Shown: positions 4,911 to 14,170 of the stretch, piece after piece | Layout: the number at the start of each line of letters is the position of its first letter | Position numbering within the stretch: the stretch's first letter is position 1 | Origin: Luteolibacter luteus | Lineage (GTDB): Bacteria > Verrucomicrobiota > Verrucomicrobiia > Verrucomicrobiales > Akkermansiaceae | Length of the DNA: 64,000 nucleotides | Assembly (NCBI RefSeq): GCF_012913485.1 | Contig: NZ_CP051774.1 | Location: 496,001-560,000 of the forward strand | Reading direction: 5' to 3' | Made by a program: the position numbers and the translations under genes | The notes under the pieces: model-generated | Seen by the model: the letters and a program-made list of their open reading frames with translations, nothing else | Told to the model about the DNA's origin: nothing | Databases searched by the model: none

Positions 4911-5522
4911 ATGCCCGAAAGCTTCACCGGTGGTTTCGTCCAGACCAATGCCTACCTCGTCGAAACCCCGGATGGAGGCCGTCTCCTGATCGATGCCCCG
5001 ATGGGCGCCGCCGGGTGGCTGGAAGCCAAGGGCATCCGCCCCACCGCCCTCCTGCTCACCCACCAGCACTACGACCACGTGGAGGACGCCGCGGCGGTCG
5101 CGGCACTTGGCGCGAAAGTCTACGCCTTCGCCCCCTACTCCACGGTCCTCACCTTGGAGGAAAGAGTCCGCGCCTGGGGCCTGCCGATCGAAGTTACGCC
5201 CTACTCGGTCGATCAGCTTCTGGAAGGCAGCGCCGAACTCGAGATCGGCAACCTGAAAATCCAGCTCGCCCACGTGCCCGGACACTCGACGGACAGCGTC
5301 ACCTTCTATCTTCCGGAACGCGGGGAGCTATACGCCGGAGATACCCTTTTCGCCGGTTCGATCGGTCGCGCGGACCTGCCCGGCGGGAATATGGGGCAGC
5401 TCGTCGACGGCATCCGGGAAAAACTTTTCGTCCTGCCGGATGAAACACGCGTTTTCCCGGGCCACGGCCCCGCGACCACGATCGGCGCGGAACGTGCTGA
5501 AAACCCGTATGTCGGTGACTGA
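4911..5522 (+). CDS. MBL-fold metallo-hydrolase (glyoxalase II-like)
   Basis: Metallo-beta-lactamase-fold hydrolase of 203 residues. The metal motif THQHYDH has H51, H53, D55 and H56. H121 lies in HVPGHS, the bridging Asp in GDTLF is at 144 and the last His in PGHG at about 185: a complete binuclear metal site. The layout, including GSIGRADLPGGN, is that of short glyoxalase-II-like hydrolases acting on thioesters, but substrates in this subgroup vary. There is no signal peptide, so it is cytoplasmic. It appears monocistronic. Confidence 0.88.
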   Translation: MPESFTGGFVQTNAYLVETPDGGRLLIDAPMGAAGWLEAKGIRPTALLLTHQHYDHVEDAAAVAALGAKVYAFAPYSTVLTLEERVRAWGLPIEVTPYSVDQLLEGSAELEIGNLKIQLAHVPGHSTDSVTFYLPERGELYAGDTLFAGSIGRADLPGGNMGQLVDGIREKLFVLPDETRVFPGHGPATTIGAERAENPYVGD

Positions 5523-5644
5523 AAGCGAGGCAAAGCCGCGCCCGGGTGTCGCTACTTACGGGCGAGAAATCCGCTGGAATTTTACACTCTCCCCTGCGAC
5601 TTTGGTAAAGCAGATGAGACAACCGACGTTTATTGCCTGAATCC

Positions 5645-8275
5645 ATGGCTGACGACCCGCAAACGCCGGTGGAAATCCCGATCCCCGAGTCGCTGCGCAA
5701 GCAGCTCGACGATTTCCGCCGTCAGTTGTGGCGGGCTAAAATCGCCGAAGCCGTCTTGGCGGGATTTTTCGGGCTCCTCTTCTCTTTCTTGCTCGTTTTT
5801 GCCTTGGACCGGGTCTGGCAGACCCCCGCCCTGCTACGTCTGGCAATCCTCATCGGGGGCACCTCGCTCATGGCGATCTTCGCCCCGCTGTGGATGCATC
5901 GCTGGGTTTGGAAGCACCGCCGCGAAAATCAGCTCGCCCGCCTGATCGCAAAGCGCTTCCCCGGCCTCGGCGACCGCCTGCTCGGCGTCGTCGAGCTCCA
6001 GCAACAGGTTGAAAATTCCGATACCCTCTCCCCTCGCCTGCGTGCCGCCGCCATGCAGCGGGTCGCGGAGGAAGCGGAGCGCCGCAAGCTTGAGGAGGCA
6101 CTGCCCGCTTCCCGCCAGCGCACTTGGTTCCTTGCGGTCGTTGCACTGTTTCTCACCGCAACAGGTGCCCTGATTTTCGCCCCGAAGGCCGGCATCAGCT
6201 CCTTGAAGCGCTGGCTGATGCCTCTTTCCCAGACCCAACGCTACACCTTCACCGCGCTCGAGGCGACACCTGCCGAACTCCCCGTGCCGCAGGGAGAAGC
6301 CTTTTCGATCACCCTGAAGCTCGCCAAGGACACCGAGTGGTACCCCGCTTCCGGCGTGGCGAAATATGGCCGCCAGGATCCGGTCTTCGCCCCATTATCC
6401 GGCAGCAGCTACGAGTTCCAGTTTCCCGCGCAACAAGATCCCGGGATCGTGAAGATCGAGATCGGAGATGCGAAGCACTTGATCAAGGTGGTCCCGACCC
6501 TGCGCCCCGCCATCCGCAGGGTGCTGGCAAACCTGAAGCACCCGGACTACCTGCAAATCCCGAATCGGGAAATCGACCTCGGCAGCGGCGTTCTTTCTGC
6601 CGTGGAGGGGAGCAAGGTCTCCGTGACGATCGATGCCACCCGCGAGCTCGCCTTGGCCAGCTACCAGTTCGGCCCCTTGGAGTCGTCGCTCGCCACCCCG
6701 GCACCCGCCGCGGAACTCCGGGAGCGCGGCGAAATGAGCATTCATGGAGCCTCGGCAAGCACGCCTCCCATCGAGATCGGCAAGGATGTCTCCAAGCTCC
6801 CGATCCAGTGGACCGACCAGCTTGGACTCAAAGGCGAGGACGGCTTTGAAATCCGCGTCGATGCCCTGCCGGATGAAGCTCCGGGGATCTACATCCAGGG
6901 CCTCCCGCGCCAGCACGTCATGCTTCCGGAGGAAACCGTCGATTTCGAGGTACTGTCCGAAGACGACTTCGGCATCCGCCGCATCGGCTTGGAATGGAGC
7001 GGCGAATTCACCCGTGCGACCGACGAAAAGCCGGCTAGCGGCGAGATCGAGTTGGCCACCGGTGGCCCGGCGATGAATCGCCTCTCGGGCAATCCCGCAT
7101 TCTCTCCGCAAGCCTACCAAATCCGGCCGCAGAAGCTCACCCTGCGCGCATGGGCGGAAGACTACATGCCGGGACGCCAGCGCGCCTTCTCGGAGCCCGT
7201 CACGCTTTTCATCCTCACGCACGACGAACACGCGCAGATGCTCAAGACCCAGTTCGACCGCGCGATCGGCGAGCTGGAGGACCTCGCACGCCGGGAGCGG
7301 AATCTCTACGAAGAGAACCAGCGCCTTGAGCGCCTGGCACCGGAAGACCTGCGGAAGGAAGAAAACCTGAAGCGCTTGGAAGCCCAGCAGGAAGCGGAGA
7401 AGCAGCAGGCCGAGCGCATGAAGGATCTGGCCGAGAAGATGGAAAAGCTCTTCAAGGACAGCACCCGCAACGGAACCATCGACAAGGACACCCTGAAGAA
7501 GATGGCCGAAGCCCAGCAATCGATGCGCGAGCTCGCGGAGAAGGACATGCCTGAAGTCGAGAAGCCCCTCGGCGACGCACAGGACCAGCGTAATACCGAC
7601 GAGAAGTCGAAGCAGGATGTCGAGAAGGCCGTGCAGGAGCAGAAGGAAGCACTCGAGAAGATGCAGGAGGCCCTTGAGAAGGCGAACGATGCCAACCAGC
7701 GCTTCGAAGCAAGCACCTTCGTCAACCGTCTGAAGAAGGCCGCTTCCGAACAGGAAGGCGTCGGCATCAGCGTGTGGGATTCCTACGCGAAGACCGGCGG
7801 CCTCTCCATGGAGGAGCTTGACCCTTCGGATTCAGGCAAGCTGCAGGACACCATGCGCCAACAGGCGAATATCACTTCCGACGTCCGCTGGATCCAGGAG
7901 GACCTGAACCATTTCTTCACCCGCACCAACAAGGAAGAGTATCGCAAGATCCTGGATGCGATGACCGAGTCGCGCATCGATCTGAAGCTGGAGGACCTGC
8001 GCCTGTTGCTGGATGCCAACCATGGCTATCGTGCCCGCGAGGAAGCCGACATCTGGGCAAACAAGCTCAAGGAGTGGGCCAAGATGCTCGAGGGCGAGCA
8101 GCAATCCGGCGGCGGGGGGGGCGGCGGCGGCGGTGGTGAAAACCAGGATGAGGATTTCGAGTTCATGCTGCGGGTCATGAAGATGATCCAGCAGGAACAG
8201 GATCTCCGCGCGCGCACCCGTGCCCTTGAAACACTCCGACGTTCTTACGACAATAGCCCGAATCCCGAGCCATGA
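5645..8275 (+). CDS. DUF4175-like membrane protein with long coiled coil
   Basis: An 876-residue envelope protein. Three hydrophobic segments lie at about residues 33-54, 63-83 and 160-180. A beta-rich extracytoplasmic region follows (about 190-530), then a long Glu/Gln/Lys/Arg coiled coil (about 535-690), and near residue 821 a run of about ten glycines before an acidic, helical tail. The pattern fits DUF4175-type proteins of Verrucomicrobiota, Planctomycetota and Bacteroidota, whose role is not established. The start at 5645 (MADDPQ) is preferred over the ATG four codons earlier. The stop overlaps the next start (ATGA), so it heads a coupled operon. It could act as a scaffold for the secreted proteins encoded downstream; that is inference. 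Confidence 0.8.
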   Translation: MADDPQTPVEIPIPESLRKQLDDFRRQLWRAKIAEAVLAGFFGLLFSFLLVFALDRVWQTPALLRLAILIGGTSLMAIFAPLWMHRWVWKHRRENQLARLIAKRFPGLGDRLLGVVELQQQVENSDTLSPRLRAAAMQRVAEEAERRKLEEALPASRQRTWFLAVVALFLTATGALIFAPKAGISSLKRWLMPLSQTQRYTFTALEATPAELPVPQGEAFSITLKLAKDTEWYPASGVAKYGRQDPVFAPLSGSSYEFQFPAQQDPGIVKIEIGDAKHLIKVVPTLRPAIRRVLANLKHPDYLQIPNREIDLGSGVLSAVEGSKVSVTIDATRELALASYQFGPLESSLATPAPAAELRERGEMSIHGASASTPPIEIGKDVSKLPIQWTDQLGLKGEDGFEIRVDALPDEAPGIYIQGLPRQHVMLPEETVDFEVLSEDDFGIRRIGLEWSGEFTRATDEKPASGEIELATGGPAMNRLSGNPAFSPQAYQIRPQKLTLRAWAEDYMPGRQRAFSEPVTLFILTHDEHAQMLKTQFDRAIGELEDLARRERNLYEENQRLERLAPEDLRKEENLKRLEAQQEAEKQQAERMKDLAEKMEKLFKDSTRNGTIDKDTLKKMAEAQQSMRELAEKDMPEVEKPLGDAQDQRNTDEKSKQDVEKAVQEQKEALEKMQEALEKANDANQRFEASTFVNRLKKAASEQEGVGISVWDSYAKTGGLSMEELDPSDSGKLQDTMRQQANITSDVRWIQEDLNHFFTRTNKEEYRKILDAMTESRIDLKLEDLRLLLDANHGYRAREEADIWANKLKEWAKMLEGEQQSGGGGGGGGGGENQDEDFEFMLRVMKMIQQEQDLRARTRALETLRRSYDNSPNPEP

Positions 8276-8904
8276 AGACGACCCTCGCATTCATCCTCGC
8301 TCTCCCCTTGTTCGCTGCGGCCGCAGAGAAGGATCTCGCGACAAAAATCGCGGAGCATCAGGACGGCTCGCGAAAGCTCTCCGAGCAGCAGGACGAAATG
8401 GCAGCAGACGTCCAGCAGCTCATCATCGAACAAACCCATCCCAAGGTCATCGAGCTGCTCGAAGGCGTGGAGCAAGCGATGGATGAAGCGTCGGGCTTGC
8501 TGCTCGAGTTCGACACCGGCGGGATCACCATCGCCGCGGAAACCGATGTCATCGAAAAGATCTTCGAGGCCGCCAAGGAACGCCAGAAACAACAGGGCCA
8601 GGGACAAGGCCAGCCGAATAGCCCCGGCGGTGCCATGCTGGACATGATGGAGCGCATGATGGGCAAGGAGCCCGGGGGCGAGCAGCCCGGCCAGCAACCA
8701 GGTCAGCAAGGCGGCGAGCAAGGTGGCGAAGGCCAGACCGGCGACTCGGACTCCGCGAACTCCGCCAGCAACGGAGCCAGCACCGGCAAGGAAGAAGAGC
8801 GCCGCGTTCCGAAGTCCTCCGGCAAGGCCGGCCAAAGCTTGCCGCGTGAATTCCAGGACGCCCTCGACGCCTATAACCGCGCCGCCGAGAAACTCGCGAA
8901 ATGA
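8272..8904 (+). CDS. exported Gln/Gly-rich protein of unknown function
   Basis: A 210-residue protein starting with a clear signal peptide (MKTTLAFILALPLFAAAAE). Residues 20-105 are predicted helical and acidic (KIAEHQDGSRKLSEQQDEM, then a long Glu/Ile/Leu stretch). Residues 105-170 are low complexity: repeated Gln-Gly and Gly-Glu units with PGQQPGQQGGEQGG. The last 40 residues are basic and helical. The helical part resembles the coiled-coil style of the upstream protein, so the two may pair. It overlaps both neighbours by ATGA. No catalytic motif is visible. Confidence 0.75.
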   Translation: MKTTLAFILALPLFAAAAEKDLATKIAEHQDGSRKLSEQQDEMAADVQQLIIEQTHPKVIELLEGVEQAMDEASGLLLEFDTGGITIAAETDVIEKIFEAAKERQKQQGQGQGQPNSPGGAMLDMMERMMGKEPGGEQPGQQPGQQGGEQGGEGQTGDSDSANSASNGASTGKEEERRVPKSSGKAGQSLPREFQDALDAYNRAAEKLAK

Positions 8905-9887
8905 TCAAGGCTCTCTCCGCATCCCTTTTCCTCGCCAGCCTCCTTCACGGGGTGGCCCAGGACTTGCCACGCCGCCCGGATGACCCGGTGCCGGCGCAGG
9001 TCGATACCATGTTTGATCGCGGCCTCGCCTATCTCGCGAAGTTCCAGAACCAGCAGGGAGCGTGGGATGACAGCATGGGCAGCGAGCCCGGCGTGGTAGG
9101 ACTCTGCGTGGTCGCCTTCCTCGCCCATGGTGAGGACCCGAACCACGGCACCTATGCCAAGAACATTACCCGCGGCCTCGATTTCATCCTGTCCCAGCAG
9201 AACCAGAGCAATGGTTACATCGGGAACAGCATGTATAACCACGGTTTCGCCACCCTCGCCCTCGCGGAAGCCTACGGCATGGTGGACAACCCGAAGATCG
9301 CCCCCGCGCTGAGGAAAGCGGTGGATCTGATCCTCAGTGCGCAAAAACGGAATCGTTCCGAAGCCTGGCGATATACTCCGGACAGCACCGATGCGGATAC
9401 CACCGTCTCCGGCTGCCAGCTGGTCGCGCTCTATGCCGCGCGGAATGCAGGCCTGCCGGTCCCGGATGAAGCATTCAAGAAAGGCCTGGCCTATATGGCC
9501 CGCTGCCGCGGTGGCGATGGATCCTATGGCTACACCTCCGCGAGCGGCGGGAAGCCGACCCTGACGGCCATCGGCGTGCTCTGCCTCTCGCTCGCGAAGG
9601 AAAAGGACGGGAAAGGCTTCCAGTCCTCGGTCGACTACCTGCGCAAGCAGCTCTCCTACCGGGACCGCCACTACCCCTATTATTTCGAGTATTACATGTC
9701 CCAGGCCCTCTTCCATGCCGACCCGGAAACATGGGAAGAATGGAACTCCCGGAACATCCGCTACCTTTCGACGGCCCAGTCCCGTGACGGCTCATGGCCC
9801 GGGAACAAGGGACAGTCCTTCAATACGGCAGGGTCCCTGCTTTCGCTGGCCCTGAACTATAGGTTTCTTCCAATCTACGAAAAATGA
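8901..9887 (+). CDS. secreted prenyltransferase/squalene-oxidase-repeat protein
   Basis: A 328-residue exported protein. A signal peptide of about 19 residues (ending HGVAQ) precedes alpha/alpha-toroid repeats, each with an aromatic helix and a Gln-x-x-Gly-x-Trp-like turn: FQNQQGAWDD, LSQQNQSNGYIG, RCRGGDGSYGY and TAQSRDGSWPG. These repeats form the barrel of terpene cyclases, but the catalytic DXDD or DCTAE motifs are absent and the protein is exported, so enzymatic cyclisation is unlikely. Related exported toroids are common in Planctomycetota and Verrucomicrobiota and may be peptide- or glycan-binding scaffolds. It is coupled to both neighbours through ATGA overlaps. Confidence 0.82.
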   Translation: MIKALSASLFLASLLHGVAQDLPRRPDDPVPAQVDTMFDRGLAYLAKFQNQQGAWDDSMGSEPGVVGLCVVAFLAHGEDPNHGTYAKNITRGLDFILSQQNQSNGYIGNSMYNHGFATLALAEAYGMVDNPKIAPALRKAVDLILSAQKRNRSEAWRYTPDSTDADTTVSGCQLVALYAARNAGLPVPDEAFKKGLAYMARCRGGDGSYGYTSASGGKPTLTAIGVLCLSLAKEKDGKGFQSSVDYLRKQLSYRDRHYPYYFEYYMSQALFHADPETWEEWNSRNIRYLSTAQSRDGSWPGNKGQSFNTAGSLLSLALNYRFLPIYEK

Positions 9888-11431
9888 TCCGACGTCTGGT
9901 CATCGCCTCTTGGCTCACCCTGCCGCTCGCTGCCCAGCAGGAGCCGGTGGATCACCTGCGCTTCACCAATGGTGACCAGTTGCAGGGGCACTTCGGCGGC
10001 ATCAGTGACAACGGTAAGATCTTCTGGGAGCGCCCGGACATCGCCACCCCCATCGAGCTGCAGCAGGAGAAGGTCCGGCAGATCGTTTTGCATGGTGCCA
10101 GCCCGGCCTCGCCGATGGCGAACCCCTGCCACGTGACCTTGATCAATGGCGACCGCATCCCCGGCAAGGTGGTCGCTGCCGACGAGAACGAATACACCAT
10201 CGAAAGCACCGCCGCGGGCGTGCTGACACTCCCGCGCGACGTGATCGCCACCGTGGCGCCGAATCCCTTCGGCGGGCGCTTGCTCTACGCCGGCCCCTTC
10301 GAAGAAAAGGGCTGGAACATCGCACGTGCGGAAAGCGCTGCCGCCGACATTCAGGACCCCTTTGCAGCAAATGGTCCGCTGCTGCCGGATCCCACCGGAA
10401 AGAAGGATGCGAATGCCAAGAAGGAACCCGAGGCGAAGGCCTCCTGGGTCCATGCCGGAACCGCCTGGTATTCCCGCAATGGCAATGATGCGATCACCTA
10501 TGACGCAAATATGCCGGATCGCGCCCTGCTGCGCTTCAAGCTCGGCTGGCGCTCGCGTCCATCCTTCGCCGTCGCCTTCCATGCCGATCTGGCGAAGCCG
10601 CCGGCGGCGAAGAAGGAAGGGGGCGATGGCGACGACAACCGCGGAAATTTCGGTGGCCCGTCACAATTCACCAAGCTTTTCGGCAATGCTTATGTGTTGA
10701 ACTTTAATCCCGGTTACGTCCGCTTGCAGCGCACCTGGTACGACGAGGATGGCCAGCCGAAGATCACCGGCGTCCGCGTCGGCAGCACGTCCATCCGCCT
10801 GCCGGATACGGGCGAGGCTCTCTTCGAGATCCGCGCCGATCGCAAGGAAGGCTGCATCGCCGTCTACATCGATGGCGAGTTCGCCCTCCAATGGTATACC
10901 AACGAGGAGAACCGTGAAGAAGGCGGGGTCGAGGAGACCTACAAGGCCCCGGGCGGGGCTTTCGGGTTCCAGGTGCAAGGAGGTGCCTCGCAGGTGAAGA
11001 TTTCCGACATCGTGGTGGCGGAGTGGAATGGCATGACCGATTCCGCCCGTAGCATGGAGAGCGAGAAGCAGGACATCGTCCTGCTCACCAATGGCACCGA
11101 CCGCTTCTCCGGCACCGTGCGTGGGATTCAGGATGGCATCGTGGAGATCGACTCGAAGTATGCCGGGATGAAGATCCCGCTCACCGAAGTCGCGGAGGTC
11201 CGCTTTGCGAAGAGCGGACGCCGCAAGATCGAGGAGGCTCCCGCAGCGGAGATCTCCGTTCACCTCCAGCCCGTCGGGAAGATCAGCGGAAAGCCGGTGG
11301 TCGCCGCCGATGGCAGGATCGAACTGGAAAACCGCTTGGCCGGAAAGATCGACCTCGATCTGGCACCCGCCGTCGTCTTGGAATTTCAAGCTGGCGGAGG
11401 ATTCCTTGACGGTTGGGATGATGACCTTTGA
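9884..11431 (+). CDS. secreted paralogue 1: beta-barrel repeats plus ConA-like domain
   Basis: A 515-residue exported protein (MIRRLVIASWLTLPLAAQQ signal). It begins with two short beta repeats carrying the pattern hydrophobic-x-NGD-x-hydrophobic-x-G (LRFTNGDQLQGHF and VTLINGDRIPGKV). A concanavalin-like sandwich follows (about 150-380) with LLRFKLGWRSRPSF, EIRADRKEG and IDGEFALQWY, and a C-terminal repeat (VLLTNGTDRFSGTV). The same architecture occurs in the next two genes. A Lys/Asp-rich insertion near residue 230 is unique to this copy. The start overlaps the preceding stop (ATGA). Function unknown; carbohydrate or wall binding is possible. Confidence 0.75.
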   Translation: MIRRLVIASWLTLPLAAQQEPVDHLRFTNGDQLQGHFGGISDNGKIFWERPDIATPIELQQEKVRQIVLHGASPASPMANPCHVTLINGDRIPGKVVAADENEYTIESTAAGVLTLPRDVIATVAPNPFGGRLLYAGPFEEKGWNIARAESAAADIQDPFAANGPLLPDPTGKKDANAKKEPEAKASWVHAGTAWYSRNGNDAITYDANMPDRALLRFKLGWRSRPSFAVAFHADLAKPPAAKKEGGDGDDNRGNFGGPSQFTKLFGNAYVLNFNPGYVRLQRTWYDEDGQPKITGVRVGSTSIRLPDTGEALFEIRADRKEGCIAVYIDGEFALQWYTNEENREEGGVEETYKAPGGAFGFQVQGGASQVKISDIVVAEWNGMTDSARSMESEKQDIVLLTNGTDRFSGTVRGIQDGIVEIDSKYAGMKIPLTEVAEVRFAKSGRRKIEEAPAAEISVHLQPVGKISGKPVVAADGRIELENRLAGKIDLDLAPAVVLEFQAGGGFLDGWDDDL

Positions 11432-11444
11432 TTGCTGAACCCCC

Positions 11445-12770
11445 GTGTATCGTCTCGCACTCACTCTCGCCCTGATCTTGCCCGCTGCCGCGGACGAGGT
11501 CATCCTGACCGACGGGTCACGCCTGTCCGGCACCGTGGCCGCCGTGGCCGATACCGGCGAGCTTGCTCTCGCCAGCCCGCTCTCCAGCGAGCCATTCCAA
11601 CTTCGGGCGGATCACATCAAGCAGGTGCAATTCAGCCACGCCAAGAAAGTGGTCGATGAATACGATGCCATGCTGGTGCTCGCCAATGGCGACGAACTGC
11701 CCTGCGATTTGCTGGGCATCAACGCGGATTCACTCCGCGTAAACACCTCTCTCGGCGGCGAGATCGACGTGCCGCGCAGCGCGGTGAACACCGTGCAGCT
11801 CGGGGTACGGCCCCGGAAGCTGGTCTATCGCGGACCGGATAGCGACGATGGCTGGAAGATCAAAAGCGGCTGGCGCTTCGACAACCGTCGCTTCATGGCC
11901 GATGGCAGCGGCACTCTGGCACGGAGCTTCGATATCCCGGGGTCCTTTGCCCTGCGCTTCCGCTTGGCCTGGAAAAACACGCCGAACATCCAAGTCTATT
12001 TCGCCGACGACATGCTGGAAACCACCGGCAAGGCGGATCGCTACTACGTGACCTTCAATAGCTCGGGCTTCGAGTTGAAGCGCCAGCAGAGCAATGACGG
12101 CCACCCCTATCTGGCGATGGCTTCGATCCCCCGCGAGCCGGACGACTTCCCGGACTCCCAGCTCGAAGTGGAGCTCCGCGTGGATCGCAAGCTGGCAATG
12201 GTGCACGTCTACCTCAACGGCGAGTTTGTGGAGAAATACCATGACTCGCTCGATAGCGCGCCCATCGGCCAGGGCGTGATGTTCCGCAGCAATACCGGCG
12301 GCGAGGACTTGCAGTTTATCGATGCCGTCGAAGTGCGTGAATGGGACCCTTCCGCCGACCGCCACCGTGCCGAACCCCGGGGCGATGAATCTTCCGACGT
12401 GGTGATCACGCGCTCCTCCGATCGCGGCAAGGTGAAGATCCTCGAGATGCGCGAGCTCAACGGCACCCCGATGCTCTTTTACAAGGGCCCGCACTCCCCT
12501 ACCGCGGTGGAACTCCCGCTGGACGAGGTTTCCACGCTGTTCTTCGAACGTCCTGCGGAGCGCCCCGCGCAGCCGCACCCGCCGCTTGCACTGGGCCTGC
12601 GCAGCCGTGGCTCGCTGGGCGTGAACAATTGCCGCTCCGAAGGAGATCTGCTCATCGCCGATCATCCTTTGCTTGGAAAACTCTCGATCCGCCGTGATGC
12701 GGTGGCGAAGTTGGAGAGGATCGATGGCAAGGAAGAGCAAAAGGATGTAGAGGAGGAGGAAGAGGAGTGA
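11445..12770 (+). CDS. secreted paralogue 2: beta-barrel repeats plus ConA-like domain
   Basis: A 441-residue exported protein from a GTG start, 13 bases after paralogue 1; no in-frame ATG precedes the signal peptide YRLALTLALILPAAA. N-terminal repeats VILTDGSRLSGTV and LVLANGDELPCDL match those of paralogue 1. The central sandwich has LRFRLAWKNTPN, VELRVDRKLAM and VYLNGEFVEKYHD, at the same relative places as in the sister proteins. The C-terminus ends in an acidic run (KDVEEEEEE), whose codons form a purine-rich AGGAGG-like tract that may serve as the ribosome site of the next gene. Confidence 0.75.
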   Translation: MYRLALTLALILPAAADEVILTDGSRLSGTVAAVADTGELALASPLSSEPFQLRADHIKQVQFSHAKKVVDEYDAMLVLANGDELPCDLLGINADSLRVNTSLGGEIDVPRSAVNTVQLGVRPRKLVYRGPDSDDGWKIKSGWRFDNRRFMADGSGTLARSFDIPGSFALRFRLAWKNTPNIQVYFADDMLETTGKADRYYVTFNSSGFELKRQQSNDGHPYLAMASIPREPDDFPDSQLEVELRVDRKLAMVHVYLNGEFVEKYHDSLDSAPIGQGVMFRSNTGGEDLQFIDAVEVREWDPSADRHRAEPRGDESSDVVITRSSDRGKVKILEMRELNGTPMLFYKGPHSPTAVELPLDEVSTLFFERPAERPAQPHPPLALGLRSRGSLGVNNCRSEGDLLIADHPLLGKLSIRRDAVAKLERIDGKEEQKDVEEEEEE

Positions 12771-14170
12771 TGAAGACGATGCTTTACCCCTCCCTGCTGC
12801 TTGCCGCCCTGACCGGTGCGGGCGCGGCCCCGCAGACCGAAGTGCAGTGCATCGACGGCAGCCGCCTGAAGGGAAATCTCGTGGAAATCGGCCCGGACAC
12901 CGCGCGGTTGGAGGCGGATTTCCTGGCATCCCCGGTGCCGCTGAAGACCGAGAAGATCCTGGAGATCTCGATGGCCGCGAAGCGTGGCGATTTCAAGGGC
13001 GACCATGTGGCAACCGTGACGCTGAGCAATGGCGATACCCTGCGCGGCGAGTTGACCGGAGTGAGCGACAAGGAGATCTCCCTGAGCACCTGGTATGCCG
13101 GTGACATGAAGTTCCGCCGCGAGATGGTGGACCGCTTGGAGATCGAGGATCGTCCGGAGCTGTTTTTCTCCGGCCCGGAATCGATCGACGGCTGGACCTT
13201 GGACGACCCGCCATCGTGGAACTATGAGCAAGGAGCCCTGCGCGCCACCGGCCCGGGCTCGGTTTCACGGGATGTCGGCAAGCTGCCGGCGAAGCTCCGC
13301 TACGCCTTCGACCTGGCTTGGCGCGCGAGTCCACGCTTCCGCTTCATTTTCCTGAGCGATGATGTGCAGGCCGGAGAACCGGCCAATTGCTACATGCTCG
13401 ATTTTACAAATTCGCGTTTCCTTCAGCTCACCAAGCGCTCGTCCCGCACCGGCGTTACCCAGATCGGCGGCTTCATCAATATCCCCGAGATGCAGACCAA
13501 GGAGAAGATCCGCATCGAGGTCCTGGTGGATCGCAAGGCGGGCTTCATCCGCTTGCTGGTGAATGGCAATGTCGCACAGGATTGGAACGACCCCGATCCG
13601 GAGCAAGGCGCATCCTCAGGAGGTATCCATTTCAACTCCCGGGAAAGTGCCAACATCCGGATCTCCCGCGTCGAGGTGACCTCGTGGGATGGCGTCGTGG
13701 AAGGCCATGCGCCGGACAATGGAGAGGGACTCATGGAAGACGATGAGCCGCCCCAGCCGAAGGAGGAACCGGAACCCGATCCAGCCCGCATCCGCCTGCG
13801 GAACAACGATGAGGTGGCGGGCGAGATGCTGGGCATCGAAAGCGGCAAGGTGAAGCTGAAGACCCGCTTCGGCGAGGTCTTGCTCCCCGTTTCGAGGCTT
13901 CGCAACTTCACGCTTCACACCAAGGACAACCGCAAGAACCCGGACCTCTACCAGATTCCCAAGCGTTACCTGGGCGACGTTCGCGCCTGGTTCCCGGATG
14001 GCACCTGCGTGACCTTCCGCCTCGAAAGTTCGGCTGAAGGGCGCTTGAAAGGCTACGCACAACCCTTTGGGGACGTGGCCTTCGATGGCAATGCCTTCAA
14101 CCGGATCGAGTTCAATCTCTACGATCCGGAGCTGGAGGAGGCACGCCTCAGCTTCCAAGGATGGAAGTAA
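12770..14170 (+). CDS. secreted paralogue 3: beta-barrel repeats plus ConA-like domain
   Basis: About 466 residues with a signal peptide (MKTMLYPSLLLAALTGAGA). The repeats VQCIDGSRLKGNL and VTLSNGDTLRGEL, a ConA-like middle (RYAFDLAWRASPRF, IEVLVDRKAGF, LLVNGNVAQDWND) and a C-terminal repeat IRLRNNDEVAGEM repeat the architecture of the two upstream genes. An in-frame GTG at 12767 is possible, but the ATG at 12770 overlaps the upstream stop as TGATG and follows a purine-rich AGGAGGAGG tract. It is the last gene of the six-gene run, followed by a hairpin and the convergent aat gene. Function unknown. Confidence 0.75.
   Translation: MKTMLYPSLLLAALTGAGAAPQTEVQCIDGSRLKGNLVEIGPDTARLEADFLASPVPLKTEKILEISMAAKRGDFKGDHVATVTLSNGDTLRGELTGVSDKEISLSTWYAGDMKFRREMVDRLEIEDRPELFFSGPESIDGWTLDDPPSWNYEQGALRATGPGSVSRDVGKLPAKLRYAFDLAWRASPRFRFIFLSDDVQAGEPANCYMLDFTNSRFLQLTKRSSRTGVTQIGGFINIPEMQTKEKIRIEVLVDRKAGFIRLLVNGNVAQDWNDPDPEQGASSGGIHFNSRESANIRISRVEVTSWDGVVEGHAPDNGEGLMEDDEPPQPKEEPEPDPARIRLRNNDEVAGEMLGIESGKVKLKTRFGEVLLPVSRLRNFTLHTKDNRKNPDLYQIPKRYLGDVRAWFPDGTCVTFRLESSAEGRLKGYAQPFGDVAFDGNAFNRIEFNLYDPELEEARLSFQGWK

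Follow-up and report, generated by a model that had tools for sequence, protein, structure and literature searches.

The subject of this report is a block of six genes, here called G1 to G6, at positions 5645 to 14170 of a stretch of 64,000 nucleotides from Luteolibacter luteus (G000:C1:496001-560000; genome of 6.41 Mb, single contig), which is referred to as the window. The block encodes a large membrane protein, a small exported protein, an exported alpha/alpha toroid, and three exported proteins with a lectin-like fold. We consider it probable that the block makes up the rear half of an envelope system of the MoxR/VWA (Bat-like) type, which acts on the exported toroid and lectin-fold proteins.

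Organization of the six-gene block

The open reading frames (ORFs) of the block are as follows.

5645..8275, + strand: G1, ORF with an ATG start; a TTG at 5633 is also in frame
8272..8904, + strand: G2, ORF for a small, exported, Gln/Gly-rich protein
8901..9887, + strand: G3, ORF for an exported single alpha/alpha toroid
9884..11431, + strand: G4, ORF for exported lectin-fold paralogue 1
11445..12770, + strand: G5, ORF with a GTG start, for exported lectin-fold paralogue 2
12770..14170, + strand: G6, ORF with an ATG start (a GTG at 12767 is possible), for exported lectin-fold paralogue 3

An earlier note on this DNA, made from the sequence alone, had described six genes running head to tail in this order, with four of the five junctions overlapping by one or four bases and a 13-base gap at the remaining one, and the ORF listing bears out both statements: G1/G2, G2/G3, and G3/G4 are each joined by a 4-base ATGA overlap, G5 and G6 overlap by 1 base (ATG start) or 4 bases (GTG start), and 13 bases separate G4 from G5. 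Upstream of the GTG start of G5, an in-frame stop is met before any alternative start. An overlap of 1 or 4 bases is possible in relatives at 37/67, 32/70, 50/75, 16/70, and 52/73 usable junctions (in gene order), counts that are upper bounds because any in-frame start was accepted. The same note had assigned signal peptides to every product except that of G1. Judged by a simple hydropathy threshold, this holds for G2, G3, and G5, which have a hydrophobic N-terminal stretch above the threshold; the N-termini of G4 and G6 fall below it and are signal-peptide-like by eye only. Searches of Pfam and NCBIfam returned no family above cut-off for G1, G2, G4, G5, or G6. A metallo-beta-lactamase-fold hydrolase (window 4911-5522) precedes the operon, and relatives of this hydrolase are likewise placed in three other fetched loci (L032, L033, and L038).

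The exported toroid and lectin-fold proteins

The sole Pfam domain over cut-off among the six genes is PF13243 (SQHop_cyclase_C), which is carried by G3 (41.6 bits, cut-off 26.1). G3 is thus like the squalene-hopene cyclase superfamily in its alpha/alpha toroid repeats and in this domain, but differs in being an exported single unit of 328 residues without DxDD, the acid motif of squalene-hopene cyclases (DADT is read at 164-167), and in scoring far under full-length models, with 36.7 bits against the cut-off of 431.1 for TIGR01507. Among 112 sampled genomes of the order, some toroid match was found in 102 and a match of the operon type (at least 240 bits) in 73. Fifteen toroid sequences from five families share 57 invariant columns, including the D164-x-D166 pair, and this conservation speaks for an alternative in which the toroid itself is the real client, namely a periplasmic enzyme of the squalene-cyclase/prenyltransferase superfamily that receives a metal or cofactor from the MoxR/VWA proteins, with the lectin-fold proteins as scaffolds. 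A MoxR/VWA pair of this kind, NorQ/NorD, is reported to mature nitric oxide reductase in Paracoccus (PMC9976466, available part). We nevertheless regard such an enzyme as unlikely, given the failure of the full-length cyclase model, the DADT reading, and the single-unit architecture.

The lectin-fold proteins G4, G5, and G6 proved to be paralogues, as had been claimed, with pairwise BLASTP E-values of 1e-26, 7e-15, and 1e-24 at 21-27% identity. The motifs first attributed to all three were found in part: NGD-x-L-x-G (with NGD itself or a variant of it, for example DGS) and DRK are present throughout, and the second motif reads DGE in G4 and NGE in G5 but NGN in G6. In the AlphaFold model of G6 (predicted local distance difference test, pLDDT, 89.0), ten strands form two small five-stranded beta units, which are accompanied by a ConA/L-type-lectin-like sandwich (residues ~127-309) and further beta units. 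A two-sheet lectin-type jelly-roll is therefore predicted for G6 and, by homology to G6, would be expected in G4 and G5. The best Foldseek match of G6 is CBM66 (E 2.5e-7), and comparison with ERGIC-53 (VIA) gave a Z of 17.0 with a root-mean-square deviation (rmsd) of 2.5 and 168 aligned residues. With CBM66 and the L-type lectins (ERGIC-53, VIP36), G6 shares the ConA-like sandwich (Z about 15-17); it differs from them in its small flanking beta units and in sequence, with 4-16% identity among the matches listed. The small beta units have, by appearance, an Sm/SH3-like strand order.

The lectin-fold ORF may be single in other families, with roughly 930-1,280 residues; one such ORF (L049:5905-9498) ends in an AhpC/TSA redoxin domain. 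The lectin-fold profile matched 65 of the 112 order genomes, all 65 of them within the set that holds the VWA gene. When all 121 listed matches were taken in, 112 followed a toroid on the same strand at a distance of no more than 6 kb, and nine did not lie downstream of a toroid (two each in G014, G024, and G025, and one each in G023, G032, and G072).

The membrane protein G1 and its partner G2

Hydropathy and an AlphaFold model (pLDDT 84.7; predicted template modelling score, pTM, 0.56) give G1 three transmembrane (TM)-like stretches, followed by immunoglobulin (Ig)-like domains (residues ~202-525) and long helices or coiled coil; a Gly-rich linker is also present. G1 is thus predicted to be an inner-membrane protein whose coiled coil would lie in the periplasm. 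Its fold matches are Ig-like only (best Z 9.3 at rmsd 10), and a likeness to complement/alpha-2-macroglobulin domains was set aside as a general Ig-like resemblance (best Z 9.3, with rmsd values mostly of 8-24). The G1 family was found at E ≤ 1e-100 in 73 of the 112 order genomes. In other families and classes, G2 is fused to the C-terminus of G1: models of the two match a single ORF in all nine G1-holding loci from other classes, and also in L049 and L051.

The label "DUF4175-type" in the earlier note turned out to be weak, as PF13779 (DUF4175) was matched by one of 15 G1-family members (best E 7e-4) and not by window G1. This weak likeness suggests a comparison with AdvA of Acinetobacter baumannii, a division-critical protein that combines a DUF4175 domain with two predicted TM helices and mutants of which are reported to cluster with those of division genes (PMC7481262, in the part available). 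A cell-division or cell-wall machine in which G1 works like AdvA is, however, highly improbable: the DUF4175 link rests with a single family member, and 37 of the 112 order genomes do without the entire system, which is therefore not generally essential.

Window G1 contains no cysteine. In the G1 proteins of L049, L051, L053, and L058, CxxC (CxxCxxC in L049 and L058) stands at the site of the glycine run of the window protein, and a redox link, with the redoxin domain of the L049 lectin-fold ORF as its other sign, is possible. Both features would suit a Bat-type stress or oxygen-response system, the exported proteins of which sense envelope damage, and MoxR, DUF58, and BatA do belong to the same families as Bat. 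We consider this explanation doubtful at best, as window G1 is cysteine-free, Pfam recognized no redoxin among the window genes, and a Leptospira biflexa strain without all bat genes had no oxidative-stress phenotype according to the accessible text of PMC3557215.

Conservation and joint retention of the two halves

Whether the six genes stay together in relatives, a check put forward in the earlier note, was examined in a synteny sample of the best 80 of 554 relatives, which therefore represents near relatives; 55 loci had enough flank and 25 were dropped for short flanks. All six genes were found in the same order and on the same strand in 45 of the 55 loci. Neither scattered genes nor an assignment of the sandwich proteins to different families, which that note had named as grounds for giving up a single system, was encountered: the lectin-fold proteins form one family that occurs almost only here. 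G103, a genome outside the 55, has G1 and the toroid on separate contigs. In some families other than that of the window, G1 and the toroid are separated by one or several additional genes of no recognized family (~500-800 residues or more; L049:10532-12946, L050:4679-9456, and L058:6976-9330).

The joint presence of the two halves was assessed by searching for the toroid, VWA, G1, and BatA in the same 112 order genomes. Matches were counted as strong at E ≤ 1e-130 for VWA and E ≤ 1e-100 for G1, and for the toroid at a score of 240 bits or more; a gap in the scores led to weaker matches being taken as paralogues. Genes on the same contig and strand within 6 kb were counted as neighbours. VWA and G1 were both found in 72 genomes, VWA only in 2 (G068 and G101), G1 only in 1 (G090), and neither in 37. 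The corresponding numbers for the toroid and G1 were 72 with both, 2 with one only, and 38 with neither, G089 being counted as without the toroid despite two partial pieces. The BatA profile was found in 74 of the 112 genomes, that is, the VWA set minus G096 plus G090; the missing VWA in G090 and the missing BatA in G096 perhaps reflect contig ends. Fisher's test of co-occurrence gave p = 5e-26, a value that ignores kinship.

Better evidence comes from switches within genera. Four genera hold both species with all parts and species with none (13/10, 13/9, 3/2, and 1/3, respectively). Of the 72 genomes with both VWA and G1, 22 have them as neighbours, always with VWA upstream. Among the 50 remaining genomes, 16 carry the two genes on a single contig. 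In 11 of these 16 the genes are either separated by at least 55 kb or placed far from each other on opposite strands, in 3 they are 15-17 kb apart, and in 2 they are divergent neighbours. With the distance visible in the 11 genomes of the first kind (it amounts to 2.17 Mb in G015), a single deletion hardly explains joint absence. In the first of the four genera, the halves lie far apart on one contig in seven species (G010, G015, G018, G026, G053, G057, and G080); therefore, the ten species without both did not lose such an arrangement by one simple deletion. The genomes of these ten (G001, G030, G038, G050, G060, G067, G070, G073, G109, and G111; 2.2-2.7 Mb) gave no match for the toroid, VWA, G1, BatA, or lectin-fold profiles; toroid, VWA, and G1 are all present in the 13 other sampled species of the genus, in the same family. 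With every searched part absent in 10 of 23 sampled species, this genus offers natural controls.

The pattern extends beyond the order. In a sample of 155 genomes of the phylum, the strong G1 and strong VWA sets are the same 24 genomes, 12 of them outside the order; in 10 of these 12, G1 and VWA share contig and strand and lie no more than 1 kb apart, and in the other 2 they are on different contigs, with VWA at or near a contig end. Thus, judged from sequence comparison, it is well supported that the genes of both halves belong to one conserved, jointly kept system that is split in the window genome. That six unrelated neighbours have stayed together by chance, for which the 7 of the 55 loci that separate G1/G2 from the toroid could be cited, can practically be dismissed, being contradicted by the co-presence in both genome samples (112 and 155), which extends to genomes with the genes far apart.

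The front half: MoxR, DUF58, BatA, and VWA

In other classes of the phylum, the intact cluster is contiguous and reads MoxR-DUF58-BatA-VWA-G1(+G2)-toroid-lectin-fold gene(s). Six of the ten fetched loci from other classes hold the whole series (L174 and L176-L180), as does L173 except that its MoxR is truncated by the locus edge. L175 stops inside DUF58, and in it one lectin-fold gene comes ahead of the toroid; L181 and L182 hold one side each. Within the order, MoxR, DUF58, BatA, and VWA stand directly before G1 in G049 of family f4 (L049 and L071).

The front half of the window genome was located at L066 (G000:C1:277622-285886), where the best VWA relative of this genome (G000:C1:283658-285886) lies 216 kb from G1. 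Its MoxR (L066:2623-3669) matches PF07726 (AAA_3; 1.7e-61; 206.3 bits, cut-off 27) and has Walker A and B motifs (GVPGLAKT and VLADEIN), its DUF58 protein matches PF01882 (3.5e-46), and its BatA matches PF07584 (5.1e-19; 68.9 bits, cut-off 25.9). DxSxS, the metal-ion-dependent adhesion site (MIDAS) motif, is present in VWA, BatA, and DUF58. The DUF58 protein is VWA-like and has no TM-like stretch; BatA and VWA each have two N-terminal stretches of this kind and one C-terminal, and in BatA, VWA, and G1 these stretches are read from the sequence as having basic loops. The VWA domain of BatA is suggested to be periplasmic because, under the positive-inside rule, the basic loop falls between its first two TM stretches; for the BatA-like protein BB0173 of Borrelia, the VWA domain was measured as periplasmic (PMC5700661, available part).

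Two paralogous TM-like proteins of 231-234 residues, which have no Pfam match, are encoded between BatA and VWA (L066:7240-7944 and 7954-8649) and are not there in L079. The same genome has a complete paralogous operon, MoxR-DUF58-BatA/PA14-VWA/MG2-G1-like-toroid (L052 and L067; G000:C1 ~574508-586335), beside which no window-type lectin-fold gene was matched, and a third cluster, MoxR-DUF58-BatA-1227-residue protein-VWA (L065:3673-13655; G000:C1 ~201672-211654), the fourth protein of which shows a weak likeness to the G1 family.

The front-half MoxR further scores above cut-off with the bpMoxR model (38.5 bits, cut-off 27), and ternary MoxR-vWA conflict systems have been reported in Verrucomicrobia (PMC7159879, available part). 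A defence system of this ternary kind is nevertheless extremely improbable: none of 10 proteins matched PADLOC at 1e-3, in a search that did not address the third components of the published systems as such, and most components are membrane or exported proteins.

Proposed function and its weight

The earlier note had proposed that the six products form one envelope machine. A single system is supported, but the block is incomplete, with the motor half, MoxR-DUF58-BatA-VWA, outside the window. On the probable reading of the block as the rear half of such a MoxR/VWA system, we infer the following action, of which the placement in the envelope rests on predicted topology. The AAA+ ATPase MoxR and its soluble, VWA-like partner DUF58 would work together in the cytosol and act on short basic cytoplasmic parts of BatA, VWA, and G1. 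These three inner-membrane proteins would extend their large domains (VWA with MIDAS, Ig-like, and coiled coil) into the periplasm. ATP-driven movement might then pass via BatA, VWA, and G1 and assemble or remodel a complex of toroid and lectin-fold proteins, for which an envelope or substrate glycan is a possible ligand. A MoxR-VWA pair that remodels an enzyme is known in NorQ/NorD (PMC9976466, available part). In a bolder version, the system would be a trans-envelope apparatus with which Verrucomicrobiota load or hold glycans at the expense of ATP: MoxR/DUF58 in the cytosol would drive the membrane VWA and coiled-coil proteins, and these would set out the toroid and lectins in the periplasm or on the surface. 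This version is speculative and rather unlikely; if true, it could account for the uptake and storage of large glycans by these bacteria, many of which feed on polysaccharides.

Several observations weigh against the two-part system or its proposed action. At the block itself, promoter and terminator signals at the operon ends are no better than in shuffles, and among the 55 synteny loci, toroid and lectin-fold genes occur without G1/G2 alongside in the seven mentioned and G4 has no match in three. Nine VWA-bearing genomes gave no lectin-fold match at 1e-5, and the lectin-type fold, which is itself predicted, does not alone show sugar binding. Regarding joint retention, joint absences in relatives are non-independent events; in 34 of the 50 non-neighbour genomes, VWA and G1 are on different contigs and may be closer than the broken assembly shows, and G005 and G032, although counted as apart, are the divergent neighbours. 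G068 has kept BatA and VWA with no G1 and no operon-type toroid, and G101 has no strong G1. Finally, in a tree of 26 VWA proteins, the window-genome VWA groups with those forms of the order that are contiguous (90/99), apart from the VWA of the paralogous operon in the same genome, but this support is below the mark of the program, the bootstrap is unsettled, and very long branches lead to some of the paralogues.

MoxR/VWA membrane operons are widespread and, to our knowledge, few have known clients. One MoxR/VWA motor is here tied to defined exported proteins with recognizable folds, even where the genes are far apart, which provides concrete client candidates.

Comparison with known systems

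The Bat (Bacteroides aerotolerance) operon has the order MoxR-DUF58-BatA-BatB, with BatC, BatD, and BatE downstream. The same order of MoxR, DUF58, and a BatA-type membrane VWA protein heads the present cluster, in which DUF58 and BatA are found next to MoxR; the differences are that G1, toroid, and lectin-fold genes follow where BatC/BatD/BatE would be expected and that the cluster is split in the window genome. The general Pfam scan of the six window genes gave only PF13243 over cut-off, no search having been aimed at BatC-E. The Bat operon has itself resisted functional assignment (cf. the Leptospira deletion in the available part of PMC3557215).

NorQ/NorD and RavA/ViaA likewise combine an AAA+ MoxR protein with VWA partners that have the MIDAS motif. 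What sets the present system apart is that its larger VWA partners are membrane proteins, with domains predicted to lie in the periplasm, that its candidate clients are exported, and that it has no known enzyme client. The MoxR-vWA core is also shared with the ternary conflict systems, one class of which is in Verrucomicrobia; the terms DUF58 and BatA do not appear in the available part of the text of PMC7159879, and the PADLOC search of 10 of the present proteins gave no match at 1e-3. With AdvA and other DUF4175 proteins (PMC7481262, available part), G1 shares N-terminal TM helices, a place in the envelope (predicted for G1), and the weak profile likeness of one relative, and differs in that the window protein lacks a PF13779 match. 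The mucin-utilization loci of Akkermansia, MUL2 (PilM/pilin-like) and MUL1 (Sus-like), were set beside the window by description only and rejected as counterparts (PMC13174399, available part). A literature search of open-access papers found no account of the extended form with toroid and lectin-fold proteins. Thus, MoxR/VWA and Bat-like operons are already known, and what appears to be new, as far as can be read from gene content, is their extension by an exported toroid and lectin-fold proteins.

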